From Myxococcota bacterium (GTDB taxonomy: Bacteria; Myxococcota_A; Polyangia; Polyangiales; JANWZI01): a DNA stretch of 36,853 bases. Made by a program: the position numbers and the translations under genes. Positions 3,301 to 35,658 of the stretch are shown one piece after another. Position 1 is the first letter of the stretch, and each line of letters opens with the position of its first letter. The notes below the pieces were generated by a model that ran no database searches, was not told the origin of the DNA, and was given only the letters and a program-made list of their open reading frames with translations. The DNA is taken from NCBI GenBank assembly GCA_025054695.1, contig JANWZI010000034.1, forward strand, positions 1-36,853, read 5' to 3'.

Positions 3301-3369
3301 CGAGCGCGGCTCGAGGCCGCTCGAGACCGAGCCCGAGTCGGAGCTCGATGCCGATGCCGCGGCCGCGTT
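3301..3369. repeat. Hexamer array R1 (CGAGNC units, degenerate)
   Basis: This array lies between the two convergent regulator genes. It reads in the CGAGNC direction on the plus strand. From 3322 the units are cgagac, cgagcc, cgagtc, ggagct, cgatgc, cgatgc and then decay. A 4-nt phase break separates an earlier unit, cgaggc (3312-3317). It is the most degenerate of the eleven arrays in the window. Confidence 0.5.
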
Positions 3370-3388
3370 CCATGGGATGGGACCATGG
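3370..3388. terminator. Possible hairpin just after the FHA regulator
   Basis: CCATGG, a 7-nt loop and CCATGG form a 6-bp stem immediately downstream of the minus-strand stop codon at 3389-3391. There is no U-tract, so a terminator role is only a guess. The stem could also be a chance palindrome. Confidence 0.2.
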
Positions 3389-4639
3389 TCAGTCGACGAG
3401 GCCGTGCTTGCGGGCCAGACGCGCGAGGTAGTTGCGATCGAGCCCCGCTTCGGCGGCCGCTCGCGAGAAATTGCCCCGGTGGCGTTCGAGCAATCTCCTC
3501 ACGTAGTCCGCCTCGAACGCGTCGACGAGCCTTTCCTTGGCGTCCTTGAACGGGAGCGCGCTCAGCTCGTCGGTCACGCCGCCGAAGGCCGGCGAGCCCC
3601 CCGAGCCCGTGGTCGTGGTGGCTCCGGGGCGGCTCGCCACCAACGTGCGCTCGACCAGTCGAACCAGCTCGCGCACGTTGCCGGGGAAATCGTGCACGCG
3701 CAGCAGCGCCAGATCCTCCGGTCCCAAGGGCAGCCCCTCGTAGCCGAGCCCCGCGACCACTTCGCGGACGAGCGGGAGCAGATCCTCGCGTCGCTCGCGC
3801 AGCGGCGGGAGCACGATGCGCACCGCGGCCAGGTGGAAGTAGAGCGCGCGCGGCATGGCGCCGCGCTCGACGCGCTGGCGGAGGTCCGAGCGGCTCGTGG
3901 CGATCGTGCGGACGTCCAGCTCGCCGCGCTCGCGCCGGTCCAGCAGCGACAGCAGGGTCGAGGCGGTCGTGGCGCTCGCTTCGTCGACGCGGTCGACGAT
4001 CAGCGTGCCCGACTGGGCGGCCTCGAACGCGGCGTGCACGCCGCGCGGTTCGAGGGGGGCGCCTACGTCGAGCACCCAGCACGGGCGGCCGGCTCGCGGG
4101 GAGGCGTCGTGGATGGCGCGCGCGGCCTCGCTCTTGCCGGTTCCCTGTTCGCCCTCGAGCAGGACGGGGGTGTCGGTCGGGGCGACGCGCTCGAGCAGAG
4201 CGAAGACGCGACGCATGGCCGGGCTCGTGCCGACGAGGCGACCGAAGCGCGTCGCCTCGCTCGGCGCCAGGGGCGCGGGCGCGTCGGCGGCGACGAGCTG
4301 TAGTCGCGCTCGTCCGAGGCGAATCTCGGTTCCCACGGGAACGACGATCGACTCGACCCGGGTCGCGCCCACGAACGTTCCGTTGGTGCTCTGCAGATCG
4401 CGGACTCGCACCCCCGTCGAGACGAGGCCGAGCTCGGCGTGATACCGGGAGACCGTCGGGTCGCGCACTTGCAAGTCGACGTCGGGGTGGCTGCCGACGA
4501 CGAGCGTGCCGCCCTCGAGCAACGCCTCGCGACCCGAGTCCGGTCCCGACACCACGCGCACGCGAACGCGTCGCACGACGAGGTCTCCGCCGCCGTCGGT
4601 GGCGAGCACGCCCGTCGCCTCGGTCCGCGAGGGATTCAT
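3389..4639 (-). CDS. FHA-domain AAA+ regulator of the sigma-54 activator family, GAFTGA loop missing
   Basis: 416 aa. An FHA domain (about residues 28-115, with VGSHPDVD, SRYHAEL and STNGTFVG) should bind phosphothreonine, so a Ser/Thr kinase input is likely. The AAA+ domain has Walker A GEQGTGKS at 163-170, a weak Walker B LIVDRVDE at 213-220, and FPGNVREL later. A Fis-like helix-turn-helix closes the protein (GNFSRAAAEAGLDRNYLARL). The segment between the two Walker motifs is about 18 residues shorter than in the neighbouring activator (Walker A Lys to Walker B Asp 47 versus 65 residues), and the missing part includes GAFTGA. It therefore probably cannot activate sigma-54 polymerase in the normal way and may repress, or act with sigma-70. 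The ATG at 4639 has a TAGATT -10-like hexamer 13 nt upstream. The gene is convergent with the intact activator. Confidence 0.9.
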   Translation of the reverse strand: MNPSRTEATGVLATDGGGDLVVRRVRVRVVSGPDSGREALLEGGTLVVGSHPDVDLQVRDPTVSRYHAELGLVSTGVRVRDLQSTNGTFVGATRVESIVVPVGTEIRLGRARLQLVAADAPAPLAPSEATRFGRLVGTSPAMRRVFALLERVAPTDTPVLLEGEQGTGKSEAARAIHDASPRAGRPCWVLDVGAPLEPRGVHAAFEAAQSGTLIVDRVDEASATTASTLLSLLDRRERGELDVRTIATSRSDLRQRVERGAMPRALYFHLAAVRIVLPPLRERREDLLPLVREVVAGLGYEGLPLGPEDLALLRVHDFPGNVRELVRLVERTLVASRPGATTTTGSGGSPAFGGVTDELSALPFKDAKERLVDAFEADYVRRLLERHRGNFSRAAAEAGLDRNYLARLARKHGLVD

Positions 4640-4652
4640 CGGAGCGTCACGG

Positions 4653-4658
4653 AATCTA
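4653..4658 (-). promoter_or_regulatory. -10-like element upstream of the FHA regulator
   Basis: On the minus strand TAGATT lies 13 nt before the ATG at 4639, predicting a leader of only a few nucleotides. No good -35 is visible at 16-18 nt, so this is weak evidence on its own. Confidence 0.3.
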
Positions 4659-4780
4659 GCGCACGTCGGCCGGTACCCGCGGCTCGGCGGGGGTTCACCC
4701 TGTCGGCGCGGGGCGCATTTCGCTCTCGGCGGCCTGCATGCAGTCGCGCGCGTACGGCAGCCACGAGCTCTCTCGCTCCG

Positions 4781-4869
4781 GCCTCGGACGCGGTCTCGGG
4801 TCGGGCTCGGGCGCGGACTCAGACTCGGTATCGGTCTCGGATTTGGTCTCGGACTCGGACTCGGACTCG
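4781..4869. repeat. Hexamer array R2 (GNCTCG units) with shared downstream flank
   Basis: On the plus strand there are 14 units: three, a 5-nt unit (4799-4803, the only length change), then eleven more. Typical units are gcctcg, gtctcg, ggctcg and gactcg, and the array ends with three perfect gactcg. The next 40 nt (4870-4909, beginning CAACACC) match the flank of R5 at 31 of 40 positions without gaps. Further units (gactcg, gaatcg, gtctcc) follow at 4914-4931. Confidence 0.85.
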
Positions 4870-5004
4870 CAACACCCCACGGCCACGTCGAGCAACGTGA
4901 TCGCCGCCGCTGCGACTCGGAATCGGTCTCCGGCGCCGCGTCGATCGCGCGCGGGGTGGCGACCTTCGACGCTCATTGTCCGCCGAATCGCAGCCGCCGG
5001 CGAT

Positions 5005-6144
5005 TCACGCCGATGCGGACCCCTCGACGACGACACGGTCGCCGCCGTCGCGCTTGGCCTCGTAGGCCAGAGCGTCGGCGCGTTGCAGCAACGCACGCGC
5101 CTCTTCACCGGCGCGGGCGAGCGCGACGCCCACGCTCGCCGTCACGGGTGCCTGTGGATCGAGCGAGCCACCGACCTGCCGGATTGCCGTCCGGAACCGC
5201 TCGGCGGCGCGGCGCGCGGCCGCGAGATCCGTGCGCGGCATCACGACCACGATCTCGTCGCCCCCGTAGCGCCCGACGACGTCCGATTCGCGACTCGTCG
5301 CCCCAAGTGCTCTGCCGATCTCGACGAGCATGCGGTCGCCTTCGAGGTGACCCCACAGATCGTTGACCCGCTTGAACCCGTCCAGGTCGATCATCGCGAC
5401 GGAAAGCGGCTGATCGGCGAGCCGCGCGCGTAGCTCCTCCTCCAGTCGGCTCATCAGATGCCGCCGGTTGTAGAGCTGCGTGAGCGGGTCGCGTCGCGAC
5501 AGCTCCTCGAGGCGATGGTTCGCCGCGACGAGCGCACGCTCACGGCGCCGGTCGTCCTCGACGACCTTGCCCGCGATGGCCGTCGAACCGACGAGCAGCA
5601 GCGGAAGGAGCATCGCGGCCACGATGGAGGCCGCCTCGTCGGGCACCACGCGATCCGCCCAGGGGGGCGCGTCGGGACCGTACGGCAACAGCCCCGCGCG
5701 CTCGCAGAGCACGATTCCCGCATAGGACAGCGACCCGACGACGGCGAGCGTCAGGCCGGTCGCGCGACCGACGAGAAGCGTGTTGAACAACCCCTGAAAA
5801 AAGTAGAGCCAGACCCACATCGTCGTCAGGCTTCCCGTTCGGTGCACGACGAACGTGAGCAGCGCGCTGTCCACGAGACCGGTGAGCAGGGGACGGATGC
5901 GCGGCGCGACGTCCTTCCAGACGAGCCACACCGTCACGCAGGCCCAGATCACGTATCCTGCCCACAGGCCTCTGTAGCTCGCCGTACGTGGGTAGAGCGC
6001 CGGAAGCAGTGTCAGCAGCACGACGCCGATGACTACCCGCACCGAGGCGCCCGCCGCCCTTGCGCGCCGCTCGTCCACCGAACGTGCAAGGTAGCCGTTC
6101 GTGCGCTCTCGCGCCCACTCCATGCTGCACGGCGTGGAGGTCAC
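5005..6144 (-). CDS. Membrane-anchored diguanylate cyclase (GGDEF domain)
   Basis: 379 aa. The N-terminal ~195 residues hold about six hydrophobic segments (roughly 34-50, 58-76, 88-150 as several, 172-192), followed by a short coiled-coil linker and a GGDEF domain. The catalytic signature is GGDEI at 294-298. Nine residues earlier RESD (285-288) matches the RxxD inhibitory site that binds cyclic di-GMP. Both are intact, so it should make c-di-GMP from GTP with product feedback. No EAL domain is present. A second Met (residue 8, 6123) is an equally good start. The stop codon of rlmB lies 32 nt upstream, so it is probably the last gene of a four-gene operon. The sensor region matches no named family that I recognise. 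Confidence 0.92.
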   Translation of the reverse strand: MTSTPCSMEWARERTNGYLARSVDERRARAAGASVRVVIGVVLLTLLPALYPRTASYRGLWAGYVIWACVTVWLVWKDVAPRIRPLLTGLVDSALLTFVVHRTGSLTTMWVWLYFFQGLFNTLLVGRATGLTLAVVGSLSYAGIVLCERAGLLPYGPDAPPWADRVVPDEAASIVAAMLLPLLLVGSTAIAGKVVEDDRRRERALVAANHRLEELSRRDPLTQLYNRRHLMSRLEEELRARLADQPLSVAMIDLDGFKRVNDLWGHLEGDRMLVEIGRALGATSRESDVVGRYGGDEIVVVMPRTDLAAARRAAERFRTAIRQVGGSLDPQAPVTASVGVALARAGEEARALLQRADALAYEAKRDGGDRVVVEGSASA

Positions 6145-6175
6145 CGGGGGGGTCGGCGCCCACGGGCCGGGACTT

Positions 6176-6919
6176 TCACGGGGCGACGCGCGACCCCGCC
6201 CGCAGTCCGGCCACGATGTAAAGGGCGATTCCAGCGGCCACCGCGGCGTTCAGCGACGCGGGCACGCCGCGCGTCGGGATGCGCACGAGACGATGGCAGC
6301 GCTCGCGCACCAGTCGCCGCAATCCGCGTCCCTCCGAGCCGATCACGAGCACCCGTCCACCGGGCGCCGGTCCGAGCGCGTCGACCGGTTGCGCCCCGTC
6401 CGGATCGAGCCCCACCACTTCGAGACCCCGCTCGGCCATCGCGCCCAACGTTCTGGCCAGATTGGTGACCCGCGCGATGCGCGCATGCTCGGTCGCTCCG
6501 GCCGATGCGCGCACCACGACGCCCGTCACCGGCGCCGACCGATGCCGCGGCACCACGACGCCGTCGGCTCCGAATGCGACGGCGCTTCGCACGATCGCGC
6601 CGAAGTTGCGCGGATCGGTCAGCTCGTCGAGCGCGACGACGAGCGGCTCGGGCGCGCCGACTTCGAGAATGCGTTCCAGACTCTCGTAGGGATAGTCGCC
6701 GGCAATCGCCACGACGCCCTGGTGCCGCAACCCTCCGGCGAGCGCCTCGAGCCGTTTCGAATCCGCCGGCTGCACCTCGAGCCCGATGCGCGCCGCGGCC
6801 TGCGCGAGGCGCCCATGCGCAGTCATCTCCGGCGCCGCGTAGATCGCCTGCACGCCGCGGGCGTGCGGCCCGGCCAAGGCTTCGAGCACCGCGCGTGGTC
6901 CCAGCAGTCGGCGCTTCAC
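6176..6919 (-). CDS. rlmB: 23S rRNA 2'-O-methyltransferase (RlmB/TrmH family)
   Basis: 247 aa. A SPOUT-class methyltransferase with an N-terminal substrate-binding domain (LLGPRAVLEAL, residues 5-15). The three TrmH motifs are present: DPRNFGAIVRSA (102-113, with Asn105 and Arg111), VIGSEGRGL (192-200) and PASLNAAVA (220-228). Family members methylate the ribose of G2251 in 23S rRNA using S-adenosylmethionine. The GTG start at 6919 overlaps the pyrF stop as GTGA, which implies translational coupling. The frame is open further upstream, but that part lies in pyrF and is arginine-rich noise. Assignment to RlmB rather than another TrmH-family enzyme rests on the N-terminal domain and overall length. 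Confidence 0.9.
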   Translation of the reverse strand: MKRRLLGPRAVLEALAGPHARGVQAIYAAPEMTAHGRLAQAAARIGLEVQPADSKRLEALAGGLRHQGVVAIAGDYPYESLERILEVGAPEPLVVALDELTDPRNFGAIVRSAVAFGADGVVVPRHRSAPVTGVVVRASAGATEHARIARVTNLARTLGAMAERGLEVVGLDPDGAQPVDALGPAPGGRVLVIGSEGRGLRRLVRERCHRLVRIPTRGVPASLNAAVAAGIALYIVAGLRAGSRVAP

Positions 6920-7623
6920 GGCTGCTCGACCGCCAGCTCCTCGAGGATCCGCCGTGCCGCGGCGCGTGGATCGGGAGCGTCGCGGATGGGCCGCCCCACG
7001 ACCACGATGTCGGCTCCCGCCGCGATTGCCTCGGCGGGCGTCGCGACGCGCCGCTGGTCGTCGGTCGAACTGCCGGCGGGACGGATGCCGGGAACAACGA
7101 GCAACGGCCGCGTCCCGAACGCGGCGCGCAGCGCGCGGCACTCGTGTACCGAGCAAACGAGCCCGCCGAGACCCGCACCGACCGCGAGCTTCGCGAAACG
7201 CATCGCCGCATGCTCCGATGCCCCCTCGAGACCGATCTCGCGCAGATCCTCGTTCCCGAGGCTCGTCAGGACCGTCACGCCGAGCAGCACGAGGCTCGAA
7301 TCACGCGCCGCGCGCACGGCCGCCTCAAGCGCCGAACGCCCCGCCGCCGCGTGAATCGTCAGGAAGCGGGCGCCGTGTCGCGCCGCCGATGCGACCGCAC
7401 CAGCCACGGTCGCGGGGATGTCGTGCAGCTTTAGATCGAGGAAGCATTCGGCTCCCGCCAACCGAACCAGCCGTACCGCCTCCGGCCCGATCGCCGCGAA
7501 CAGCTCGAGTCCGACCTTGAAGACACCGACGTCGCTCACGAGCGCATCCACCCACCGGCGCGCCGTGTCCGCATCGCCGACGTCGAGCGCAAAGCACAGG
7601 CGCTCTCGCGCCGTGCGTGACAC
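6916..7623 (-). CDS. pyrF: Orotidine 5'-phosphate decarboxylase
   Basis: 235 aa, normal for the bacterial family. It converts OMP to UMP, the last step of de novo pyrimidine nucleotide synthesis, in the cytoplasm. The signature FLDLKLHDIPATV (61-73) carries the catalytic Asp63, Lys65 and Asp68. The N-terminal LCFALDV (Asp14) and FKVGLE (Lys36) fit the substrate pocket, and VVVGRPI lies near the C-terminus. The gene starts 6 nt after the stop of the upstream coiled-coil gene and overlaps rlmB by 4 nt. Other pyrimidine genes (pyrC, carA) lie about 17 kb away in this window, so the pathway is split. Confidence 0.97.
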   Translation of the reverse strand: MSRTARERLCFALDVGDADTARRWVDALVSDVGVFKVGLELFAAIGPEAVRLVRLAGAECFLDLKLHDIPATVAGAVASAARHGARFLTIHAAAGRSALEAAVRAARDSSLVLLGVTVLTSLGNEDLREIGLEGASEHAAMRFAKLAVGAGLGGLVCSVHECRALRAAFGTRPLLVVPGIRPAGSSTDDQRRVATPAEAIAAGADIVVVGRPIRDAPDPRAAARRILEELAVEQP

Positions 7624-7629
7624 CGAGCG

Positions 7630-8397
7630 TTACTCGTCGATTCCGGCGAGCGGGTCGAGCGGGTCGCTGCTCGAGCCCATTCGCGTGCCGGCCGACGTAG
7701 CCATGGCCGACGCCCCCGGCCGACGGCGCATCCCCGTGGGGCTCGCGGCGGCCTCCCCGGCGAGCGCGGACGACGCCCGGCTCTGTTCGGCCGCGAGGCG
7801 CGCCGCCTCGAGCTGGCGGGCCCGCTCGGCGGCCTCTGCGGCAGCTCGCTGCGCCGCCGCGGCACGCGCCTCCGCCTCCTGCTGCTGGCGGGCAATCTCG
7901 GCCGCCCGCGCACGCGCCGCGGCTGCCTCGGCCTCTCGACGCTCGATGGCCGGCTTGACGACGCCGAACCACACGCCCGCGCCGATCGCGAGCACGCCCG
8001 CGACGATGCCGCCGATGACCCCCGGATGCAGGCCCTTCTTCTCGCGCGCCCGCAGTGCGGCCATCTCCCGCTCGTGCGCGAGCAGCCTCTCCTGCTCTGC
8101 TGCCCGCGCGCGGGCCTCTGCCTCGAGTCGCACGCGCAATTCGGCCTCTTCGCGCTCGCGCCGACGCCGCTCTTCTTCCTCTCGCTTCTGCCGCTCGATC
8201 GCGGCGAGACGTTCCTCCTCTTCACGGCGGCGGCGCTCTTCTTCCTCGCGTCGGCGGCGCTCTTCTTCCTCGCGGCGCCGCCGTGCCTCTTCCTCGCGCC
8301 GGCGCTTGTCCTCCTCTTCGGCCCGGATCCGCTCCTCCTCGAGGTTCATCAACTCGCGGAGGTTGAAGAGAACCGACGATTCCTTCTGTTCGGCCAT
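7630..8397 (-). CDS. Single-pass membrane protein with charged coiled coils
   Basis: 255 aa. Residues 18-120 are an almost pure Glu/Arg coiled coil, built partly from an 8-residue repeat of the EEEERRRR type. One transmembrane helix follows (about 126-147, PGVIGGIVAGVLAIGAGVWF), then a second Ala/Glu/Arg helix (150-215) and a Ser/Gly/Pro-rich tail ending DPLAGIDE. The composition recalls TolA-like periplasmic spanners, but no TolA domain is recognisable, and topology suggests a cytoplasmic N-terminal helix. It is the first gene of the run into pyrF, with a 6-nt gap. I do not recognise the family. A partner or scaffold role is possible but not shown. Confidence 0.8.
   Translation of the reverse strand: MAEQKESSVLFNLRELMNLEEERIRAEEEDKRRREEEARRRREEEERRRREEEERRRREEEERLAAIERQKREEEERRRREREEAELRVRLEAEARARAAEQERLLAHEREMAALRAREKKGLHPGVIGGIVAGVLAIGAGVWFGVVKPAIERREAEAAAARARAAEIARQQQEAEARAAAAQRAAAEAAERARQLEAARLAAEQSRASSALAGEAAASPTGMRRRPGASAMATSAGTRMGSSSDPLDPLAGIDE
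8228..8323. repeat. 24-bp tandem repeat inside the coiled-coil gene
   Basis: Four consecutive 24-nt units (8228-8251, 8252-8275, 8276-8299, 8300-8323) encode the 8-residue Glu/Arg repeat. The first two differ only at the last base and the later two are diverged. This is in-frame internal duplication of a coiled coil. Confidence 0.8.
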
Positions 8398-17213: not shown

Positions 17214-17243
17214 TTGACCGCGGGTACCGGCCGCCCCGACGAT
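17214..17243 (+). promoter_or_regulatory. Weak promoter candidate for the TPR pair
   Basis: TTGACC (17214-17219), an 18-nt spacer and GACGAT (17238-17243), 12 nt before the ATG at 17256. The geometry matches the better promoter at 28943, but the -10 is poor. Confidence 0.3.
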
Positions 17244-17255
17244 GGCGGGACCCCG

Positions 17256-18407: not shown

Positions 18408-20488
18408 TGTCCGACGCGCCCCGCCAGCGGGCGACGGGCCCGACGCTGCGATGCGACGTGCGCTTCGAGGATCGTCGCCTCGTGGTGCGGATCTCCGATG
18501 CGCGTGGCAGCGGCGGTGTGCGTCTGGAACTACTCGAAGCCGTCTCCGGACCCCTTCCGAGACCGTATGAGCTGAGCGGGGGGCTCGAACGCTGCAGGCA
18601 TCGGGCGACGACGGCCAGCCTGCTGCGCGCCGAGGTGCGGCTGCGTGCCCTCGAGCAGTACGCCGCCGATGCGGGTGTCAGGCTCGCCGTGCGCGACGTG
18701 CCGGGCGTTGCGGCCGAGGTTCTTCTCGACGACGGGACGGGGGCGGTCGTCGCGCCGGTCCTCGCGACGTTCGAGGGCGGGGATCTCGTGCTCGCGCCAC
18801 TGGGCGCGCGCGCGGCGGTCGACGGCCCCGCGCCGGCGCTGCGACGCTGGCTCGATGGCTGTCGCCGTCTCGGCGCGAACGTCGTCGGCGCCACCGCGCG
18901 CTGGACTCGGCTGCTGCGGGCGCTCATGGCCGATGCGTTGCTCCCTGCCGGCCATCGCGTTCCCGACGATACCGCCCTGGTGCTTTCCGGGTGCGCGATC
19001 CGCGATGGAGGCATTGTGTTCGAGGCGGGGCTCGAGGGCATCGAGCCGTGGTGCGAGACCCGCGAGGCGTGGGTCCGCCTGCGCGACGCGCTCGTGGCAC
19101 TGGCGCAAGGGGAGGCCGTCCGCGCGCGCGATCGACTCGAGTGCCTTGTGCCTCGTTCCGCGCTTCGAATCCCGCAGCCCACGCCGGTGGACGGCTTGGT
19201 GACTCGGGCATGGGTCGAGGCACTCCTCGAAGAAGGCGCGGAATCCGACGACGGGCACATCGATGGGGAGGCGAGCGAGAGCCACGATCCGCACCTCGTG
19301 TGCGCGCGCTTTCGGCTCGCGATGCGATCCGGGCAGCCCGACCGCGTGCTCGGTGCGCTGCACATGGTGCTCGCCCATGAGCCGTTCGCGACCGTGCGTG
19401 CCCAGGCCGTAAGTGCCGCGCTCGATCGTCTCGAGCCGGTCGACGCCCCGCGGGCACTGGAAGCGTTGCGCGTCGCGCTCGGACGCTTCCCCCTCGACGA
19501 GGCGTTCGTGCGTCGCGCTCTTCCGATCGCCGCGCGACTGCAGGCGGCGGACGTGCTGCACGAGCTGGGGCGCCGCGTCCTCGGGGCGCCCCTTCCCGCT
19601 GCCGTGCGGGGGCGACTGGGAGCTGGTGCTGCGCTCGCGCTGGAGAGCATCGGAAGGCCCGGCCCGGCGCTCGACTTCGCGCGGCAGGCGGTGCATGCGG
19701 ACCCGGATGTCGCCGATGCGCATCTCGCCTTCGGGCGGGCGCTTGCTCGAATCGGTCGGCCGGACGCGGCCCTGGTGCGGCTCGAGCGCGCCGCGACCCT
19801 GTACGAACGAGAGGGTGAGGGCGAACGTGCGGCCGACGCGCTGGAAGCGGCCGCGAACGCGGCGATCCGCATCGGAAGGTACGCGACCGCCGAGGCGTTG
19901 CTGCAACGCGCGCTCGCCCTCGATCCTTCGAATGCGCGCACGGTCGATGCGCTGGCCGGGGTCCAGACGCGCCTCGGCGCGCTCGATGCGGCCGCCGGGA
20001 CGTACGAACGGCTACTGGCCGACGGGCTGTCCGGACGCGACGCGGCCCTGCACGACGCGCTTGAGCACGCGATCGCCTTTCATCTCGAGGTGCGGCTCGA
20101 TGGAGCCGGCGCGCGCCCCTTCGTGGAGGCGCTGCAGCGGGCCGGTGCGGACACCGACCGCGTCGATGCATGGCGCCGGCGCATCGACGGCCCGGCGCCG
20201 GGCCCGCACACGGCCGCCGGGACGCTGCGCGCGGTGGGCGATCACGCCGGAGCGGCGCGCCTCCTTGCGCGGGAGGCGGCCACGAGTCGCGACGCGGCGA
20301 GTCTGCGCGCGGCGATCGAGGCCGCGGAAGCCAGTGGCCAGCGCCGCCTCCTCGAGGAGGTCCTGCGCACCGCCCTCTCGTGGCTCGATGAAGGGCCGAC
20401 GCGGCGCGCCGTCGAGGCTCGCCTCGCCCTCGTCGCGGGACGCCCCGACGATCCGTCGCGGAACGAACCGTCTGCCGAGGCCGATTGA
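18407..20488 (+). CDS. Large TPR protein of unknown function (second of coupled pair)
   Basis: 693 aa. The first ~290 residues are beta-rich and alpha/beta with no recognised domain (TLRCDVRFEDRRLVVRISD; a GIVFEAGLEGIEPW segment). From about 300 to 690 the protein is a helical TPR-like solenoid; clear repeats include AHLAFGRALARIGRPDAAL, AANAAIRIGRYATAEALLQR and ALAGVQTRLGALDAAAGTYE. No signal peptide or membrane segment. The ATG lies within TGATG, overlapping the stop of the first TPR gene, so expression is coupled. The family is not recognised. Confidence 0.8.
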   Translation: MSDAPRQRATGPTLRCDVRFEDRRLVVRISDARGSGGVRLELLEAVSGPLPRPYELSGGLERCRHRATTASLLRAEVRLRALEQYAADAGVRLAVRDVPGVAAEVLLDDGTGAVVAPVLATFEGGDLVLAPLGARAAVDGPAPALRRWLDGCRRLGANVVGATARWTRLLRALMADALLPAGHRVPDDTALVLSGCAIRDGGIVFEAGLEGIEPWCETREAWVRLRDALVALAQGEAVRARDRLECLVPRSALRIPQPTPVDGLVTRAWVEALLEEGAESDDGHIDGEASESHDPHLVCARFRLAMRSGQPDRVLGALHMVLAHEPFATVRAQAVSAALDRLEPVDAPRALEALRVALGRFPLDEAFVRRALPIAARLQAADVLHELGRRVLGAPLPAAVRGRLGAGAALALESIGRPGPALDFARQAVHADPDVADAHLAFGRALARIGRPDAALVRLERAATLYEREGEGERAADALEAAANAAIRIGRYATAEALLQRALALDPSNARTVDALAGVQTRLGALDAAAGTYERLLADGLSGRDAALHDALEHAIAFHLEVRLDGAGARPFVEALQRAGADTDRVDAWRRRIDGPAPGPHTAAGTLRAVGDHAGAARLLAREAATSRDAASLRAAIEAAEASGQRRLLEEVLRTALSWLDEGPTRRAVEARLALVAGRPDDPSRNEPSAEAD

Positions 20489-20560
20489 CGACGGCGATCG
20501 CGGTGTCCGATGGGGCACCGAAGCCGTTTTCGAAATCGCGCCCCGCTCCTAGGCCAACTC

Positions 20561-20704
20561 GGAGACGGAACCGCACTTCGAGCCCGAGTCGGCGTTCGAG
20601 TCCGAGTCGGAGACCGAGGCCGAGTCCGAGCCCGAGTCCGAGTCGGAGACCGAGTCGGAGACCGAGGCCGAGTCCGAGCCCGAGTCCGAGCCCGAGCTCG
20701 AAGC
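20561..20704. repeat. Hexamer array R6 (CGAGNC units), longest in the window
   Basis: Twenty-four hexamers without a phase break; 15 are exact CGAGNC and four more are ggagac. An eight-unit (48-bp) segment is duplicated inside the array: about 39 nt starting near 20604 recur at 20652. It sits in the 262-nt gap between the convergent TPR and cytochrome genes. Confidence 0.9.
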
Positions 20705-20750
20705 GCCGAGACCAAGCGTCTCGTCGCGAGCGGCGGCGAGCACGACGGCC

Positions 20751-21842: not shown

Positions 21843-21851
21843 GATGGCTGG

Positions 21852-21857
21852 AGTCTA
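21852..21857 (-). promoter_or_regulatory. -10-like element upstream of the cytochrome gene
   Basis: TAGACT on the minus strand, 9 nt from the GTG start, again predicting almost no leader. No -35 match is visible. Confidence 0.3.
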
Positions 21858-21976
21858 GGACGCGCGGGACCGGCGCGCAGCCGGCCGCGATTCCAGCAGA
21901 CCGGTCTCGGCAACGCGATCGCCGTGCGGGCGCCTTGCGGGGCGCCCGAGGGCACCGCATCGCGCGTGCGGGCTGA

Positions 21977-21982
21977 TATGCT
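21977..21982 (+). promoter_or_regulatory. -10-like element upstream of pilB
   Basis: TATGCT lies 9 nt before the pilB ATG. No convincing -35 lies 16-18 nt upstream. If used, transcription would begin within a few bases of the start codon. Confidence 0.3.
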
Positions 21983-21991
21983 TCGCGCGTC

Positions 21992-23701: not shown

Positions 23702-23776
23702 CCGCTCGCTTCGCGCCGTCGACCCGGCGTCGTCTCAAGCCAGGTGGCCGCCTTCGACTCGGGGCTGGTCGATCGC

Positions 23777-23896
23777 GGCTCGGACTCGGGCTCAGGCTCG
23801 GATTCGGACTCGGACGCGGGCTCGGTCTCGGACTGGCCCTCGAACTTCGACTCGGTCTCGGACTCGATCTCGAACGCGCCCTCGGTCTCGGGCTCG
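23777..23896. repeat. Hexamer array R7 (GNCTCG units)
   Basis: Twenty consecutive hexamers on the plus strand without insertion or deletion. Eleven are exact GNCTCG (gactcg, gtctcg, ggctcg); others have one or two substitutions, such as gattcg, gacgcg, atctcg and ccctcg. Confidence 0.9.
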
Positions 23897-23980
23897 CAGG
23901 AATCGCGGTGAGCTCAATGAGATCCGCGTGGCCTCGCGGAGTCGGTTCGAAGATTCGTTAAGGAGTATGTGTGGGGAGGA

Positions 23981-24022
23981 GTGACAACACATGACCATAC
24001 ATCGCTCGCCTGTCGTTGTCAC
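23981..24022. repeat. Perfect 8-bp inverted repeat in the leader of the small gene
   Basis: GTGACAAC (23981-23988) and GTTGTCAC (24015-24022) are separated by 26 nt. The right arm overlaps the -35-like TTGTCA. It could be an operator or an RNA hairpin enclosing the micro-ORF start. Confidence 0.5.
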
Positions 24023-24041
24023 GTACATGCGGTGGTGCTAA
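23991..24041 (+). CDS. Candidate 16-codon micro-ORF (leader peptide)
   Basis: ATG to TAA encodes MTIHRSPVVVTYMRWC. It is preceded by GGGGAGGAG (23973-23981) with 9 nt to the ATG, one of the best Shine-Dalgarno matches in the window, and it ends 10 nt before the ATG of the 78-aa gene. No homolog is known to me. It may be a regulatory leader peptide or chance. It conflicts with the promoter-like element at 24016-24044, which would lie inside it. Confidence 0.35.
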   Translation: MTIHRSPVVVTYMRWC

Positions 24042-24044
24042 CTT
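24016..24044 (+). promoter_or_regulatory. Sigma-70-like promoter for the 78-aa gene
   Basis: TTGTCA, a 17-nt spacer and TAACTT, with TG one base upstream (TGCTAACTT, extended -10). The predicted start site falls at about 24051, at the ATG at 24052, implying a leaderless or nearly leaderless transcript. Confidence 0.45.
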
Positions 24045-24051
24045 CGCCCCC

Positions 24052-27511: not shown

Positions 27512-28164
27512 CGCGCGAACAGATCGCGATGCGCGCCGCGCTCGAGCTCCGAGACGGCGACTACGTCAACCTCGGCATCGGCATGCCGACGCTCGTCGCC
27601 AACTACATTCCGGCGGGCGTCGAGGTGATGCTGCACAGCGAGAACGGCCTGCTCGGTGTCGGGCCCTATCCATTCGAAGGGGAGGAGGACCCCGACGTCA
27701 TCAACGCCGGCAAGGAGACGGTGACGCTGCTGCCGGGTGCCGCCACCTTCGACAGCGCCACCTCGTTCGCGATGATCCGGGGCGGACACGTCGACGTGGC
27801 AATCCTCGGAGCGATGGAGGTCTCCGAGCGGGGCGACCTCGCCAACTGGATGATCCCCGGCAAGATGGTCAAGGGCATGGGCGGCGCGATGGATCTGGTG
27901 CACGGCGCACGCCGTGTCGTCGTCATCATGGAGCACGTGAACAAGAACGGCGCCCCGAAGATCCTGCGCCGTTGCAGTCTGCCGCTGACGGGCGAGCGCG
28001 TCGTGCACCGCATCATCACGGACATGGCCGTCATCGACGTGACGCCCGAAGGACTCGTTCTGCGCGAGCTCGCGCCGGGCCTGAGCGCGCGCGACGTGCA
28101 GGAACGCACCGAGCCCACGCTGCGCGCCGGACCCGACCTGGCGACGATGCGTCTACCCGCGTAG
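27505..28164 (+). CDS. scoB: 3-oxoacid/acyl-CoA transferase subunit B
   Basis: 219 aa. Family I CoA transferase beta subunit. The catalytic glutamate is Glu46 in [10 protein letters not shown], which forms the glutamyl-CoA thioester. Also conserved are [13 protein letters not shown] and [29 protein letters not shown]. The ATG at 27505 lies inside the end of subunit A (7-nt overlap), so the two are coupled. It is followed by array R8 and then a convergent gene. Confidence 0.93.
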
Positions 28165-28186
28165 CGCCGACCGAGGCTCCCCGAGA

Positions 28187-28300
28187 GGCTCGGGCTCGGG
28201 CGCGGACTCGGTCTCGGTCTCGGTCTCGGACTCGGTCTCGGTCCCGGTCTCGGTCTCGGGCTCGGGCTCGGACTCCGTCTCGGCCCCGGTCTCGCGCTCC
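28187..28300. repeat. Hexamer array R8 (GNCTCG units)
   Basis: Nineteen consecutive hexamers on the plus strand; 14 are exact GNCTCG, with second base T eight times, G four times and A twice. No phase break. It almost fills the 146-nt gap between two convergent genes, starting 22 nt after one stop and ending 10 nt before the other. Confidence 0.9.
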
Positions 28301-28310
28301 TGTGCGCGCG

Positions 28311-28898: not shown

Positions 28899-28942
28899 CG
28901 TACGGCGGCGCACGCGGTCGATGCAAAAGATCGCCGCCTGGT

Positions 28943-28972
28943 TTGACCGGCCGCACGCGGCGGTCCTACGCT
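28943..28972 (+). promoter_or_regulatory. Sigma-70-like promoter for the TPR-AIM24/pgsA operon
   Basis: TTGACC (28943-28948), an 18-nt spacer and TACGCT (28967-28972), 12 nt before the ATG at 28985. This is the best -35/-10 pair I found in the window. It predicts a leader of about five bases. Confidence 0.5.
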
Positions 28973-28984
28973 CCCCCGCCCTCC

Positions 28985-31014: not shown

Positions 31015-31073
31015 ATCGTTCGTCCCGGCGGCCAGTGGCGGCGAGCTCCTCGGTGGCGACTCCGGGCCGGCCA

Positions 31074-31127
31074 CGAGCTCGAGGCCGAGGCCGAGTCGGA
31101 GTCCGAGTCCGAGTCCGCGTCAGAGCC
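31074..31127. repeat. Hexamer array R9 (CGAGNC units)
   Basis: Nine hexamers in one phase on the plus strand: cgagct, two cgaggc, cgagtc, ggagtc, two cgagtc, cgcgtc, agagcc. It lies in the 147-nt gap between the convergent pgsA and CHAD-CYTH genes. Confidence 0.8.
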
Positions 31128-31161
31128 TGGCGATGCGGAGCGAGTCAGCCGACCGCCGCCA

Positions 31162-32607
31162 TCAACGCGCCAGTCGCACGTTGAGATACTCCGGATCGTC
31201 GGTCACGTCGCGAAGCACGAACGGCTCGAGCCACGCGGGCAAGGCGACCTCCTCGTCGGAGCGCGTCAGCTCGACCTCCGCCAGAACGAGCGAGCGGTCG
31301 AGGAATTCGTCGATTTCCCACGTGCGTGCTCCGTCGACGACGCGGTGACGACGCTTGTGGATGCGGCGCCCGGACGTGAGCGGCCAGAGCGCCTCGAACA
31401 GCTCGGCGCCGACGGGCTCCTCGATCTCGACGCGCCGGACGCCGCCACCGAGCTTGACCGTTCGCAGCAGACGAACGCCGCGCGGCGCCCGCTCGCGACG
31501 CAGCCGCTCGACGATGCGATCCCCCGGAAGGTAGCCCTGCTCGATCTCGACGACGTCGGCGTGGGGCATCTCGGGAAGGCGCGAGAGCAGATACTTGCGT
31601 TCGATCTCCTCGTCCCTGGACGCGCGTCCGTGCGCCACGGCCTCGAGCGCCTCGGCGAGCGCGAATGCCTCCTCGCGCCAGCGACGTCCCCCTTCGTCGA
31701 ACAGCTCCTGCCGGCACCGCTCCCAGCTCGCGCGAAGCAACGCATGCGCGCGCTGACCGAGCTCGAGCAGCCCTCCGCGCGGATCGGGGCTCTCGTCGGG
31801 CTCGCCCGTGGTCACGGCGTGCAGCGCGCTACGCGCCCGATCGGCGGCGGCATCCCCGAGCGCATGTTCGACGCGTGCGAGCAACACGTGGGCGTCGTGC
31901 ATGCGTCCCAGGGCGTCCTGCGCCGCGCGGCAGCGATCGACGAGCGCACGCGCCGCCGGCAGCGCGTCGCGGACCGGCTCGACGAGATAACGAAGGCGCT
32001 TGATGGCGATTCGCGCCGCGTGCGCGGCGTCCTGGTCCTCGAGCCCGCCCACGGCGTCGATCGCTTCGGCCACCTCGCGCCCCGCGCGCCGCAGCCCTCC
32101 CGCCAGGGCTGCGGCGAACGACGGCGGCTCCCGATCGGGGGCGTCGACGGAGCGGAGCACGACGCTCAAGCCGTCCCGGAGTCGCGGCGCGAGGCGCTCC
32201 CATCGTGGCAACACGTCGCGACGAATCCCCTGCCGGACGACCGCGAGGCGGCGGTCGAGCTCGGCGCGCAGCATGGCGGCTCCGCGCTGTTGCGCGTCGT
32301 TCATCGCACCGCCGAGCTCGTCGAGCAGCGCGAGGACGACTTCGAGATCACGCGCCTCGCCCGTCGCGCGCGTCACCTTGCGCAGCCGCCGCACGTGTCG
32401 TTGCCGCAGCGTGCCACGCCACAGGTCGGGCCACGCGCGCAGCGTGCTCCGAAGGCGGCGCAGCGCGACCCGCAGATCGTGCAGCGCCTCGACGTCTGGG
32501 TCGGGCCGGTCCACGCGTCGCGCCGCCGCGCTCGCATCGTCGAGGAACCCGAGCGCGATGCGTCGTACGGCGACGTCACAGGGCAACGTCAGCATCTCGC
32601 GGTCCAT
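31162..32607 (-). CDS. CHAD-CYTH domain protein (domains in inverted order)
   Basis: 481 aa. The N-terminal ~290 residues form a helical CHAD domain rich in His/Arg (LHDLRVALRRLRSTLRAW at about 45-62; AARIAIKRLRYLVEPVRDAL), which binds polyphosphate. Residues ~330-480 are a CYTH/triphosphate-tunnel domain with the ExExK signature EIERK (334-338) and basic tunnel strands (RIVERLRRER; VRLLRTVKL). Tunnel metalloenzymes hydrolyse triphosphates or short polyphosphate. In the usual bacterial fusion CYTH comes first; here CHAD does. The start is the ATG at 32607, with Met5 as an alternative. It stands alone, divergent from surE and convergent with pgsA. Confidence 0.9.
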   Translation of the reverse strand: MDREMLTLPCDVAVRRIALGFLDDASAAARRVDRPDPDVEALHDLRVALRRLRSTLRAWPDLWRGTLRQRHVRRLRKVTRATGEARDLEVVLALLDELGGAMNDAQQRGAAMLRAELDRRLAVVRQGIRRDVLPRWERLAPRLRDGLSVVLRSVDAPDREPPSFAAALAGGLRRAGREVAEAIDAVGGLEDQDAAHAARIAIKRLRYLVEPVRDALPAARALVDRCRAAQDALGRMHDAHVLLARVEHALGDAAADRARSALHAVTTGEPDESPDPRGGLLELGQRAHALLRASWERCRQELFDEGGRRWREEAFALAEALEAVAHGRASRDEEIERKYLLSRLPEMPHADVVEIEQGYLPGDRIVERLRRERAPRGVRLLRTVKLGGGVRRVEIEEPVGAELFEALWPLTSGRRIHKRRHRVVDGARTWEIDEFLDRSLVLAEVELTRSDEEVALPAWLEPFVLRDVTDDPEYLNVRLAR

Positions 32608-32917
32608 CGCGCCGACTCGTAACAGGGAAGTCGCACGCGCGCACGACCGGGCACGATTCGTGGCAGAACGGTGACGCGAAGGTGGCGATGTCTTCGGTGC
32701 GAGCTCCCCGATTGTGGGTGACTCGGATTCGGCCTCGGACCCGCCCTCCGACTCGGTCTCGGAGTCCGGCTCGGCCTTGGACTCTGTCTCGGGCTCGGGC
32801 TCCGACTCGGACTCGGACTCGGTCTCGAGTTCGGGCCCAGATGCGGGCTCCGAGCGCGGAACCGTCGCGCCGGCTGCGTGCGACGCGGCGGTCGTGCTAA
32901 GCCGGCCCTCGTCCACG
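32608..32917. other. 310-nt divergent intergenic region holding array R10
   Basis: Between the starts of the CHAD-CYTH gene (minus) and surE (plus). Array R10 occupies 32720-32851. The remainder must carry both promoters, but I could not assign a clear -35/-10 pair. A frame open from a GTG at 32714 through the array joins surE in frame. Its Ser/Asp-rich product looks like repeat translation, not a SurE domain. Confidence 0.5.
32720..32851. repeat. Hexamer array R10 (GNCTCG units)
   Basis: Twenty-two hexamers on the plus strand with no insertion or deletion. Eleven are exact GNCTCG; the others are mostly one or two substitutions away (gattcg, gacccg, gactct, ggctcc, gatgcg). It lies in a divergent gap, between two promoters. 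Confidence 0.9.
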
Positions 32918-33676
32918 ATGCGCCGGCCCCTCATCCTCGTCTCGAACGACGACGGTGTGCTCGCGCCCGGAAACGTCGCGCTGCGCGAGGCGCTCGAGCG
33001 CATCGGGGACGTGTACACGGTGGCGCCGACCACCGAGCAGAGCGCCAACAGTCACTCGCTCACGCTGCACCGGCCTCTGCGATTCGAGCGGCTCGCCGAA
33101 CGCGTCTGGGCCGTCGACGGCACGCCCGCGGACTGCGTCTACGTCGCGCTCGTGATGCAGGGGGTGCTGCCGCGCAGACCCGATCTCGTTGCCAGCGGCA
33201 TCAACCACGGCCCGAACCTCGGCGCGGACGTGCACTATTCGGGCACGGTCGCGGCGGCTCGCGAGGCGGCGCTGCGAGGCATTGCCGCAATCGCGTTTTC
33301 GCTCGTCGAGCCGGGCCCGCTCGAGCCCGTCGCCGCCCTCGCCGCGACTCTGTGCGAGCGCATGCTCCAGGCCGGGCTGCCCGGTGGGCCGGTGCCCCTG
33401 CTCAACGTCAACGTGCCACCCCGCTGGCAGGGCATCCGCGCGACGCGTTTGGGCCTGCGACGCTACGAGGACGCGGTGACCGTGCGCACCGACCCGCGCG
33501 GCCGGGGCTATCTGTGGCTCGGCGGAGCGGAGGCCACGCACGAGCCCGTGGACGGCAGCGACACCGAGGCCGTCGACGCCGGCTGGGTGTCCGTCACGCC
33601 GCTCGCCATCGAGGTCACCTACGGTCCCCACATGCCGCTGGCGCGCCACGTCGCCGGCGTGGAGGCTGCCCCGTGA
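32918..33676 (+). CDS. surE: 5'-nucleotidase/exopolyphosphatase SurE
   Basis: 252 aa, the normal SurE size. The metal site NDDG (10-13, in LVSNDDGVLAPG), a serine-rich loop EQSANSHSLT and SGINHGPNLGADVHYSGTV are all conserved. It dephosphorylates nucleoside 5'-monophosphates, and some members also act on polyphosphate. The ATG at 32918 was chosen because the SurE domain begins immediately after it; the longer in-frame GTG at 32714 would add a low-complexity repeat segment. Its stop overlaps apt as GTGA, which pairs a nucleotidase with purine salvage. Confidence 0.93.
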   Translation: MRRPLILVSNDDGVLAPGNVALREALERIGDVYTVAPTTEQSANSHSLTLHRPLRFERLAERVWAVDGTPADCVYVALVMQGVLPRRPDLVASGINHGPNLGADVHYSGTVAAAREAALRGIAAIAFSLVEPGPLEPVAALAATLCERMLQAGLPGGPVPLLNVNVPPRWQGIRATRLGLRRYEDAVTVRTDPRGRGYLWLGGAEATHEPVDGSDTEAVDAGWVSVTPLAIEVTYGPHMPLARHVAGVEAAP

Positions 33677-34203
33677 GCTCCGAGCGCCTCGAACGGCTGC
33701 GAGCACTGGTGCGCGACGTGCCCGACTTCCCCCGGCCGGGCATCAACTTCAAGGATTTGACCCCGCTGCTCGCCGACCGTCATGCGTTGACCATCTGCAT
33801 CGACTTGTTCGCCGAACGATGGGTCGGCGAGCACCTCGACGCGGTCGTCGGGATCGAGTCGCGCGGGTTCATCTTCGCGGCCCCGCTCGCGGTCCGTCTC
33901 GGCGCTGCGTTCGTGCCGGTGCGAAAGCCGGGCAAGCTGCCCCGCGCGACCGATCGCGTCACCTACGCGCTCGAGTACGGCACCGACGCCCTCGAAATGC
34001 ACCTCGATGCGCTTCGTCCCGGCATGCGCGTGCTCGTCGCCGACGACGTGCTCGCGACGGGTGGCACGGCTGCCGCGGCCTGCGAGCTCGCCCGCCGCCA
34101 GCAGGCGCTCGTCGTGGGTGCCGCGTTCGTGGTCGCCTTGCGCGCGCTGCGCGGCGTCGAGCGACTCGCCGGCATTCCGGTTCAGGTCTTGCTCGAGCTC
34201 TGA
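33673..34203 (+). CDS. apt: Adenine phosphoribosyltransferase
   Basis: 176 aa, family-typical. It makes AMP from adenine and PRPP. The PRPP-binding loop VLVADDVLATGGTA (120-133) is intact, and the N-terminal segment VPDFPRPGINFKDLTPLL plus IESRGFIFAAPLA are characteristic of Apt. The GTG start overlaps the surE stop. The last 22 nt overlap the end of the convergent AI-2E permease, so the two transcripts have complementary 3' ends. Confidence 0.96.
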   Translation: MSSERLERLRALVRDVPDFPRPGINFKDLTPLLADRHALTICIDLFAERWVGEHLDAVVGIESRGFIFAAPLAVRLGAAFVPVRKPGKLPRATDRVTYALEYGTDALEMHLDALRPGMRVLVADDVLATGGTAAAACELARRQQALVVGAAFVVALRALRGVERLAGIPVQVLLEL

Positions 34204-35558
34204 TCGGCGTCGGCGTCGCCCGATCGGGAATCGGACGCCTCGGGCTCCGCATGGCGGTCGTCCGACGGCGCGATTTCCGACGTATCCGGCTGTTCGGCTG
34301 CCGCGTCCTGTCGTTGCGGCGCGGTCGATGCGCTCGGCTCGGTGCGGACCGCCGTTTCGGACGGTGGTGTCGACTTGACATCTGCGGCTCGTGTTTCCTC
34401 CGCGGCGTCTGGTGGTGGTGGCGGCGGGCTGGCCGCGGCCGGCGTGCCTTCGGAGCCGACGGGGATTGCGTCGCGCGAGTCTCCGAGAAAAAGGGCCGTG
34501 CGGCGGTACCGCGCGATCGCACGCTGCCCGAGGATCTTGACGATGGCGGCAGCCGGAACGGCGAGCAGGACGCCCAGCAACCCGAGCAGCTCGCCGCCGA
34601 TCATCATCGCCACGAGCACGGCGACCGCGGGCAGCCCCACGCGCTCGCCGACGACGCGCGGCGTGATGAAGAGCCCGTCGGCCGCTTGGATGGCGCCGTA
34701 GGCGAGTACGACGCCCACGTACGTCCACAGCGGCGCTCCGTCGAGCGCGCACATGAGCAACGCGAGCAGCAGGCAGACCGCGCCGCCCACGTACGGCACG
34801 ATGGCGAGTAGCCCCCCGAGCAGTCCCACGACGGCGCCGAGCCGCACGCCGAGCAACGAGAACGCGATGGCGTAGAGGATGCCGAGCACGAGCATCACCG
34901 TTGTCTGCCCGCGTACCCACGCCGCGACCATCGCGTCGATCTCGCGCGCCAGCTCGACGAGGCCGGGGCGCATCGGCACGGGCAACAGGTCGCGCACCGC
35001 CGCCGTGATCCGGTCGAAGTCGTGCAGCAGGTAGAAGGCGAGCACGGGGACGATGAGCAGGGCGGCGACCGTCGCGATCGCGGAAGCCGTACCCCCGACG
35101 AGCCATCCGAGGAACCGGCCGGCCGGAGCAAGCGCGTCGCGGGCCATCGACGCGTCCACGGGCACCAGCGCCGTCAGCTCGTTCCACGAGTGGGGCAGGC
35201 GGACGCCCATCTGCGCGAGCCACGGCTCGACCCGGCCTTGCAGCGCGGACAAGCGTGCGGGCAGCTCCTGCGCGAACGCGGCCACGTCCCGCACGATGAG
35301 GGGAACGACGACGAGGACCGCAACCGCGATCGCACCGAGCGCCGCGACGAGCAGCGCGACGATCGCGACGGATCGCGGCAGGCGCAGCCGCTCGAGGCGG
35401 TCGACGAGCGGATCGAGCAGGTAGGCGAGCAGCCAGGCGAAGAACAGGGGCGTGAGCACTTCCCGCAGCGCCCACAGCGCCCAGCCGACGGCGAACAGGC
35501 CGGCGCTCCACAGCACCCACCGCGGCGGGAGCGCGTCCGAGCGCGAGCCTTGCGCCAT
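34182..35558 (-). CDS. AI-2E family transporter (PerM-like permease), second copy
   Basis: 458 aa. Core of about eight helices: residues 14-60, 63-90, a helix near 150-175, and a C-terminal block (205-345) with LGILYAIAFSLLGVRLGAVVGLLGGLLAIVPY and LFITPRVVGERVGLPAVAV. The loop between helices 3 and 4 (about 92-140) is amphipathic, as in the family. A tail of ~85 residues (370-458) is rich in Pro, Ala, Ser and acidic residues and looks disordered. Substrate unknown. It overlaps apt at the 3' end. It shares the family with the gene at 13337-14461, but the two differ clearly in length and tail, so they are not a recent duplication. Confidence 0.9.
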   Translation of the reverse strand: MAQGSRSDALPPRWVLWSAGLFAVGWALWALREVLTPLFFAWLLAYLLDPLVDRLERLRLPRSVAIVALLVAALGAIAVAVLVVVPLIVRDVAAFAQELPARLSALQGRVEPWLAQMGVRLPHSWNELTALVPVDASMARDALAPAGRFLGWLVGGTASAIATVAALLIVPVLAFYLLHDFDRITAAVRDLLPVPMRPGLVELAREIDAMVAAWVRGQTTVMLVLGILYAIAFSLLGVRLGAVVGLLGGLLAIVPYVGGAVCLLLALLMCALDGAPLWTYVGVVLAYGAIQAADGLFITPRVVGERVGLPAVAVLVAMMIGGELLGLLGVLLAVPAAAIVKILGQRAIARYRRTALFLGDSRDAIPVGSEGTPAAASPPPPPPDAAEETRAADVKSTPPSETAVRTEPSASTAPQRQDAAAEQPDTSEIAPSDDRHAEPEASDSRSGDADADQSSSKT

Positions 35559-35610
35559 GGACCGCTACATACACCACGCGCGCCCACGTCGTGTTTCGGC
35601 GTCGATTTCA

Positions 35611-35658
35611 GACTCCAACTCGGCCTCGGACTCAACCTCGGTCTCGGACTCGGACTCG
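35611..35658. repeat. Hexamer array R11 (GNCTCG units)
   Basis: Eight hexamers in one phase on the plus strand: gactcc, aactcg, gcctcg, gactca, acctcg, gtctcg, gactcg, gactcg. It lies in the 192-nt gap between the permease start and the stop of the last gene. Confidence 0.8.

Follow-up and report, generated by a model that had tools for sequence, protein, structure and literature searches.

Degenerate GNCTCG hexamer arrays at the 3' ends of transcription units in a Myxococcota genome, some of them dispersed by a MITE-like element

The stretch of DNA analysed here (the window) comprises 36,853 nt of contig JANWZI010000034.1 from a Myxococcota bacterium (genome GCA_025054695.1). Arrays of a degenerate hexamer, GNCTCG or its complement CGAGNC, lie between its genes, and some are accompanied by an arm of an inverted repeat of ~30 bp. 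Arrays were detected with a period-6 score for GNCTCG/CGAGNC, gene boundaries are our own gene calls, made without a trained gene finder, and arms were scored in bits (99th percentile of the null, ~9.9 bits). The features are as follows.

3322..3365, minus strand: GNCTCG array without recognisable arms, in the convergent gap 3283-3388
4779..4869, plus strand: GNCTCG array, in the tandem gap 4640-5004
4868..4912, plus strand: 3' arm (GCAACACC...CAACGTGATCGCCGCCG), 30.5 bits
8607..8698, minus strand: GNCTCG array, in the tandem gap 8398-8731, near the 3' end of the gene at 8732
11211..11300, minus strand: GNCTCG array, in the divergent gap 10912-11455
13049..13156, plus strand: complete small element of 108 bp (TGA, 5' arm, array, 3' arm, TGA), arms 24.0 and 26.5 bits
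13049..13051, plus strand: left copy of the target duplication, the stop codon TGA of gene 11456-13051
13087..13110, plus strand: GNCTCG array of 4 units, within the complete element
13154..13156, plus strand: right copy of the target duplication, TGA
20486..20510, plus strand: eroded arm, 13.7 bits; it begins on a stop codon, 20486-20488, that of a gene which ends at 20488
20548..20701, minus strand: GNCTCG array, in the convergent gap 20489-20750
23777..23896, plus strand: GNCTCG array, in the tandem gap 23702-24051, with a stop codon 75 nt before the array
28187..28299, plus strand: GNCTCG array, in the convergent gap 28165-28310
31074..31127, minus strand: GNCTCG array, in the convergent gap 31015-31161
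31140..31164, minus strand: weak eroded arm (TGATGGCGGCGGTCGG), a marginal 8.0 bits, beginning on the stop codon of gene 31162-32607
32720..32850, plus strand: GNCTCG array, in the divergent gap 32608-32917
35596..35658, plus strand: GNCTCG array, in the gap after 35558
35670..35694, plus strand: 3' arm of the array at 35596 (CAACGCGACCGGCGCCGTCGG), 23.8 bits

An earlier note on this DNA had counted 11 arrays; the period-6 score finds exactly 11, each in a separate gap and all at the places that the note had given. They fill the three gaps of 106-147 nt that the note had named, and are missing, as it had said, from the gaps 17150-17255 and 21843-21991 and from gaps internal to operons. Its statement that each of the eight gaps reaching 150 nt is occupied is true in the window, but as a rule it argues partly in a circle, since an array adds its own length to the gap; with array length subtracted, enrichment persists in convergent and tandem gaps.

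How far above chance is this family? Genome statistics are based on 1.26 Mb (29%) of the source genome, a MAG of 92.6% completeness. There are 293 arrays in the 1.26 Mb, ~233 per Mb and 2.8% of the DNA, against none in Markov-simulated sequence, and extrapolation gives ~1,000 for the whole genome. Markov simulation took the place of a reversed-sequence control, which is unusable here because a reversed array still fits the unit. In 63 kb of intergenic DNA, 102-110 arrays were observed against 0-2 under Markov-1 simulation. Called genes make up 85% of the 1.26 Mb, yet contain only 20 of the 293 arrays; many of these 20 gene calls are tiny or doubtful. The gaps hold 244 period-6 tracts, 205 of them of the GNCTCG type, and 0-2 tracts for each of the periods 4, 5 and 7-11. 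The picture of dispersed, non-coding degenerate hexamer arrays that sit at the borders of transcription units, mostly one per gap and far more often than by chance, is borne out. The findings that would have overturned it, arrays as frequent in genes as between them or no more frequent than chance allows, did not appear in the 1.26 Mb.

With respect to neighbouring genes, the arrays are 3'-end elements, depleted in divergent gaps and found also behind some tRNA genes. A comparison limited to gaps of more than 100 bp (occupied: convergent 89/110, tandem 111/217, divergent 40/135) is biased, because arrays lengthen gaps; the final test takes all gaps and compares them at equal empty length, i.e. 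with the array subtracted. At an empty length of 40-120 bp, arrays occupy 50 of 65 convergent, 22 of 124 tandem and 0 of 22 divergent gaps, and the earlier statement that the three kinds are occupied alike does not hold. In tandem gaps the upstream stop codon is the nearer end for 98 of 121 arrays, at a median of 43 nt from stop codon to array start, and orientation is random (67:54). Multiple arrays occur in 4 convergent gaps, where ~21 are expected, and 91 convergent gaps are occupied instead of 57-70; armed and arm-less arrays share a convergent gap in 2 cases against 15.1 expected, an exclusion that tandem gaps do not show (7 against 8.0). Of eight tRNA units, four are followed by an array within 190 nt and none is closely preceded by one. 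Part of the 3' bias could reflect any insertion that avoids promoters.

The arms tell of a mobile past. About 40% of arrays keep at least one arm, and arms lie within 75 bp of the array in 36-41% of cases against ~1% in the null; in the remaining arrays they are undetectable. The terminal inverted repeats expected of a MITE are thus present in 36-41% of arrays, and a target site duplication is present as well. Outside the arms stands TGA or TCA as a direct repeat, a 3-bp target duplication (TSA), with C before and G after the triplet. The triplets are the same on both sides in 13 of 33 elements against 6.8 after shuffling (P 0.002), as they are in the complete element 13049..13156 (TGA/TGA), and for TGA/TCA the Fisher P is 0.011. 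Where an element end lies near a stop, the duplicated TGA doubles as the stop codon of that gene in 26 of 36 cases, and element lengths are frequently multiples of 6. Since the arms are inverted and, in the best-preserved copies, bounded by a 3-bp TSA repeat that is often a stop codon, at least the armed copies, ~40% of arrays, were dispersed by a MITE-like element.

Which element moved them? Elements of the IS5 family (IS1031 group) make a 3-bp TNA target duplication, with which the TSA seen here is compatible; however, the two transposase families searched for, PF01609 (DDE_Tnp_1) and PF13359 (DDE_Tnp_4), have no member in this genome, and membership is putative. The arm motif has no match in viral contigs or plasmids, and other genomes of the order have at most 1-2 matches each, a chance level. 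Around the arm-less arrays, a search for a second arm family gave no left-right inverted similarity. Viral contigs do carry 33 array stretches, scattered, patternless and nearly all single-array. Array purity is independent of arm preservation (rho.03), arm-less arrays being as pure as armed ones.

Within the unit, five core positions are 83-94% conserved and the sixth, N, is free (A.41, G.29, T.21, C.09). N is identical between adjacent units at.347 against.323 after shuffling, a slight excess at lag 1, and ~3.5% of adjacent pairs resemble recent duplicates. Copies whose arms are at least 80% identical share N at.40 and core positions at.87, and N is random between copies even where arms are up to 93% identical. 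Simple slippage would homogenise all positions, whereas here N is random at nearly all lags and the core is conserved; slippage alone is therefore insufficient. Dispersed intergenic short tandem repeats are found in distant lineages, e.g. the STRR heptamer arrays of cyanobacteria. The TAACTGA repeats of Beggiatoaceae, for which a protein-binding role has been proposed, are another case, 2-6 exact copies that in most instances lie immediately before start codons (PMC4679880); the GNCTCG arrays follow stop codons instead, are longer and have a fixed degenerate position.

In the textbook view, bacterial transcription ends by hairpins or Rho. Intrinsic terminators, a G+C-rich hairpin followed by a T run, are not discernible in this genome, as hairpin-plus-T signals do not exceed the reversed or shuffled control (5/908 against 8; 10/434 against 16-21). 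Rho, which Rho-dependent termination needs, has no match in the 92.6% complete MAG, either to PF07497 or to TIGR00767 at 1e-60. Loss of Rho is frequent in the class, with 81 of 318 genomes over the cut-off. GNCTCG arrays are few or absent in most relatives without Rho, so the arrays are no general substitute for Rho.

A genome of another order, G249, has GNCTCG arrays too, in 13 of 23 convergent, 15 of 64 tandem and 2 of 53 divergent gaps, with the stop codon as the nearer end in 15 of 16. Its 3'-end arrays are arm-less, their commonest N is T, and the genome also carries a divergent Rho. Arrays in G002 and several relatives are unlike these, lying inside long open reading frames with mostly coding-like third positions, and G053 was rejected as a carrier despite many 5-unit matches, which are sparse, mixed hexamers.

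The reading that we favour, tentatively and somewhat short of calling it probable, is that the GNCTCG array may close transcription units as an element that acts at the DNA level in either orientation, a boundary or roadblock terminator, a function that we infer from sequence patterns. A putative sequence-specific protein would bind the hexamer array, and the bound array would form a roadblock ending transcription from either side, or an insulator; arrays would in this way replace Rho and hairpin terminators. Selection would have kept one array per boundary and left the mobile ends to decay, and arrays do persist where inverted arms have been lost. Counting against a closing element are the longer divergent gaps that hold an array and the missing exclusion between armed and arm-less arrays in tandem gaps. 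The full form of the idea, in which hundreds to ~1,000 hexamer-array roadblocks would be this genome's terminators, at least partly dispersed by a transposable element onto stop codons, replacing Rho and hairpins and arising in parallel in a second order, we consider unlikely.

Could the arrays be functionless? They might be selfish DNA that found a safe harbour: a minisatellite MITE, now extinct, would have inserted at TSA sites, and the surviving insertions would be those that left the stop codon intact and promoters unharmed. The inverted arms, the TSA duplications, the stop codon exactly within the duplication and the lengths in multiples of 6 all fit, and promoter avoidance would account for divergent depletion. 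MITEs with minisatellites are known: BrickBuilt of Porphyromonas gingivalis has spacer-free tandem repeats flanked by short sequences that carry terminal inverted repeats, is always intergenic, has no internal transposase and lacks one or both ends in many copies; its arms have been compared with IS elements, one of the IS5 family (PMC4596501). The likeness, a tandem array between inverted-repeat flanks, intergenic and often missing its ends, is close. However, BrickBuilt has 19 copies of a 23-nt repeat, 49-591 nt from genes, with promoters shown inside (PMC4596501), whereas the GNCTCG elements number ~1,000 by extrapolation, have a 6-nt unit with a free letter, end on stop codons and stand mostly one to a boundary. 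Arrays pure despite lost arms, a single array per convergent gap far in excess of random placement, a random N beside five conserved positions and arm-less 3'-end arrays in G249 speak against selfish DNA, which we regard as a real but lesser possibility.

Less probable again is a supercoil or nucleoid anchor, in which the arrays would serve as binding sites for gyrase or for a nucleoid protein, in places behind transcription units where positive supercoils would accumulate, on the model of BIME/REP in E. coli. REP/BIME of enterobacteria occur in hundreds of copies at transcription-unit 3' ends, orientation-free and rare in promoters, and the GNCTCG arrays resemble them in 3'-end placement, rarity in promoters, indifference to orientation, many copies per genome and convergent gaps that are the fullest. 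REP units, however, are palindromic hairpins of ~35 nt tied to RAYT proteins, whereas the GNCTCG unit is not palindromic and folds inconsistently.

Site-specific hypermutation or template-copied synthesis might vary N, e.g. from a GACTCG founder with a mutable A, which is the commonest N and the sole A of that hexamer; the randomness of N from unit to unit, and among copies whose arms are nearly the same, would agree. But arm adenines are no more variable than other arm bases, T is the commonest N in G249, and a neutral site beside a selected core looks identical, so that we find the process very improbable. Plain microsatellite expansion of unconstrained DNA, already disfavoured, is slighter still: tandem hexamers of varying copy number and the small lag-1 excess suit it, but few adjacent pairs look like recent duplicates, no further motif or period has expanded in those gaps, and each holds one array. 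Least credible is an RNA element (a rut-like Rho site, a hairpin terminator or an encoded peptide tail), one of the roles that the earlier note had offered: the arrays lie just past stop codons and are probably transcribed, but random orientation and inconsistent RNA folding (patternless z-scores from -2.9 to +1.35, no T tract), no Rfam match and a genome in which Rho was not found speak against it. A coding origin was rejected, as the silent third position of CTC (Leu-Gly frame) is conserved like non-synonymous sites and there is therefore no coding constraint.

What, then, would a closing element mean? In a genome without detected Rho or hairpin terminators, the majority of convergent gene pairs have a single copy of one constrained element immediately beyond the stop codon, as does a sizeable fraction of tandem gaps. 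The pattern of conserved core and free N would be a bait sequence for a reader protein. As arrays occur in a second order and Rho loss is patchy in the class, the question is testable by comparison. If the arrays end or insulate transcription, they would constitute a DNA-level terminator that works in both directions, and would exemplify the domestication of a mobile element at ~1,000 sites.

The eleven hexamer arrays that the earlier note had counted in the window are exactly those recovered with a period-6 score for GNCTCG/CGAGNC, and gene calls by a codon-model ORF picker place each in a gap of its own, as had been claimed. The source is a draft genome of 4.27 Mb in 261 contigs, the window being its contig C189; nearest named protein matches alone assign the lineage to the Polyangia/Myxococcota. 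Together with 70 further stretches of this genome, the window forms a sample of 1.256 Mb and 968 called genes. This sample contains 293 arrays: at least one is present in 69 of the 71 stretches (median of 4 per 20-kb stretch), and 102-110 are found in 63 kb of intergenic DNA versus 0-2 in Markov simulation. Twenty of the 293 lie inside called genes, several of these calls being tiny or doubtful. Among period-6 tracts in gaps, 205 of 244 are of the GNCTCG type, and periods 4, 5 and 7-11 give 0-2 tracts each; thus the arrays represent one motif and no general microsatellite tendency. A different repeat, 174 bp long and in two tandem copies, is found at 36530-36853 of the window, where it reaches the contig end and overlaps an opposite-strand open reading frame (35751-36848); it probably belongs to a repeat protein, at which the assembly broke.

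Where are the arrays positioned relative to genes? They are almost never present in gaps of 100 bp or less. Among longer gaps of the sample, they occupy 89 of 110 convergent, 111 of 217 tandem and 40 of 135 divergent ones. Because an array itself lengthens its gap, occupancy was recounted with array length subtracted; for a remaining length of 40-120 bp, the occupied gaps are 50/65, 22/124 and 0/22, respectively. In tandem gaps, the median distance is 43 nt from the upstream stop to the array and 146 nt from the array to the next start; the stop is the nearer of the two for 98 of 121 arrays. In divergent gaps, the median distance to the nearest start is 91 nt. Of eight tRNA units, four are followed by an array within 190 nt, and none has one close upstream.

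Most occupied gaps hold a single array. When the same number is placed randomly over all convergent gaps, 57-70 gaps are expected to be occupied and about 21 to hold more than one array, but 91 and 4 are observed. Multiple arrays are likewise fewer than expected in tandem (8 versus 14-22) and divergent gaps (0 versus 4-6). An armed array (one with inverted-repeat flanks of ~30 bp) and an arm-less one share a convergent gap in two cases, where 15 are expected; tandem gaps show no such exclusion (7 versus 8.0). Orientation is near random, both with respect to transcription (67:54) and between adjacent arrays (the same in 49%). That orientation is random and that convergent gaps mostly hold a single copy both point to an element acting at the DNA level and serving both sides.

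The flanks of many arrays have sequence in common. Profile searches gave two arms, CTGACGGCGGCGGTCAGGTTGGTTGATCGCG on the left and GCAACACCCCTCGGCCACGTCAACCAACGTGACCGCCGCCGTCA on the right, whose outer parts are inverted copies of one another; at least one arm is present at 36-41% of arrays versus about 1% of random places. Outside the arms, TGA or TCA is directly repeated. The outer triplets are identical in 13 of 33 two-armed elements (7 TGA, 6 TCA; expected 6.8, P 0.002), and in 25 of 33 each C stands before the triplet and G after it, so that the target looks like C-TSA-G (TSA being TGA or TCA) with a 3-bp duplication. For 36 arm ends a stop codon lies no more than 25 bp away, and in 26 of these the duplicated triplet is exactly the TGA of the gene. 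Insertion on a TGA gives the stop codon back, as in this complete copy:

13049-13156 of the window: complete 108-bp element; the gene at 11456-13051 has the left TGA as its stop codon

Whole-element length is a multiple of six in 19 of 33. The inverted arms and a duplication that often falls on the stop codon show that at least the armed copies were dispersed by insertion. Transposases of the DDE_Tnp_1 and DDE_Tnp_4 families were not found in the source genome; 183 other genomes from the order gave no more matches to the arm motif than chance would, and the motif was not found in viral contigs or plasmids.

Did the arrays grow by slippage? Slippage copies all six letters and does not yield a free N with a kept core. 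Core positions are conserved at 83-94% over all arrays, and N (A.41, G.29, T.21, C.09) is unlike intergenic DNA (72% G+C). Adjacent units have the same N at.347 versus.323 in within-array shuffles; by our arithmetic, about 3.5% of neighbouring units, and no more, resemble recent duplicates. Between copies with right arms 80-93% identical, agreement is only.40 at N but.87 in the core, and array purity is independent of arm preservation (rho.03). Thus the mobile ends decay, N varies freely and the core of five letters is retained. Absolute purity is overstated, as detection favours pure arrays; this bias does not account for the core-N contrast or for the flat relation of purity to arm decay. 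Selection on recognition of GNCTCG yields a free N and a kept core; site-specific mutation at N would be an alternative cause of the free position.

How does transcription end in this organism? Hairpin-plus-T signals after stops in the source genome are not above control (5/908 versus 8; 10/434 versus 16-21), and Rho was not found there with PF07497 or TIGR00767, at an estimated completeness of 92.6%. Of 318 genomes in the class, only 81 have a Rho above the family cut-off, and Rho is missing also from the one-contig genome G011, which makes its loss believable; with Rho below cut-off in most of the class, the arrays are not a universal replacement. Divergent Rho is present in G249, a genome of another order, and in genus g111 of family f22. 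Folding of array strands as RNA gave no consistent sign, and a literature search on Rho loss in Myxococcota found nothing.

Runs of five units are few or absent in most of the 318 genomes. GNCTCG arrays without arms lie at 3' ends in one other, independent genome, G249 (loci L193-L202 and L243-L262), which has 6,527 five-unit runs versus 0 for the control pattern. Over 579 kb of G249, arrays occupy 13/23 of the convergent, 15/64 of the tandem and 2/53 of the divergent gaps above 100 bp; they lie closer to the stop in 15 of 16, with orientation 9:7, lack the arms of the source genome and often fill the space between two stop codons. N duplication at lag 1 (.586 versus.486) is as expected of younger arrays. 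The congener G250 has no five-unit runs, and the two genomes form a natural pair for the study of array gain. Two arrays of G249 (L193 119-330 and L194 14223-14317) have a near-identical left flank (ACGCGCGTAAGTCCACGG..GTTAACTGAC) in common, so some arrays also lie within a larger dispersed repeat. Arrays of G002 and others are internal to open reading frames and were rejected as a different thing. Several relatives (G023, G275, G285, G219/G220) are rich in GCTCNG repeats, the control pattern read backward, and so may carry other hexamer arrays.

The arrays resemble REP/BIME in placement and, as dispersed short tandem units, cyanobacterial STRR. The BrickBuilt MITE (PMC4596501) has a similar build, and the Beggiatoaceae TAACTGA repeats (PMC4679880) are also dispersed short tandem units. 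No paper describing the GNCTCG motif was found in the literature searched. The main rival reading, selfish DNA that survives only at harmless sites, seems to us somewhat less likely; the arrays occur one per gap in excess of random placement and the core is kept while N is free and the arms decay, which argues against this rival but not decisively. Our tentative preference, drawn from sequence patterns, is that a putative protein recognises the hexamer array and, once bound, would form a boundary, probably as a roadblock that ends transcription.
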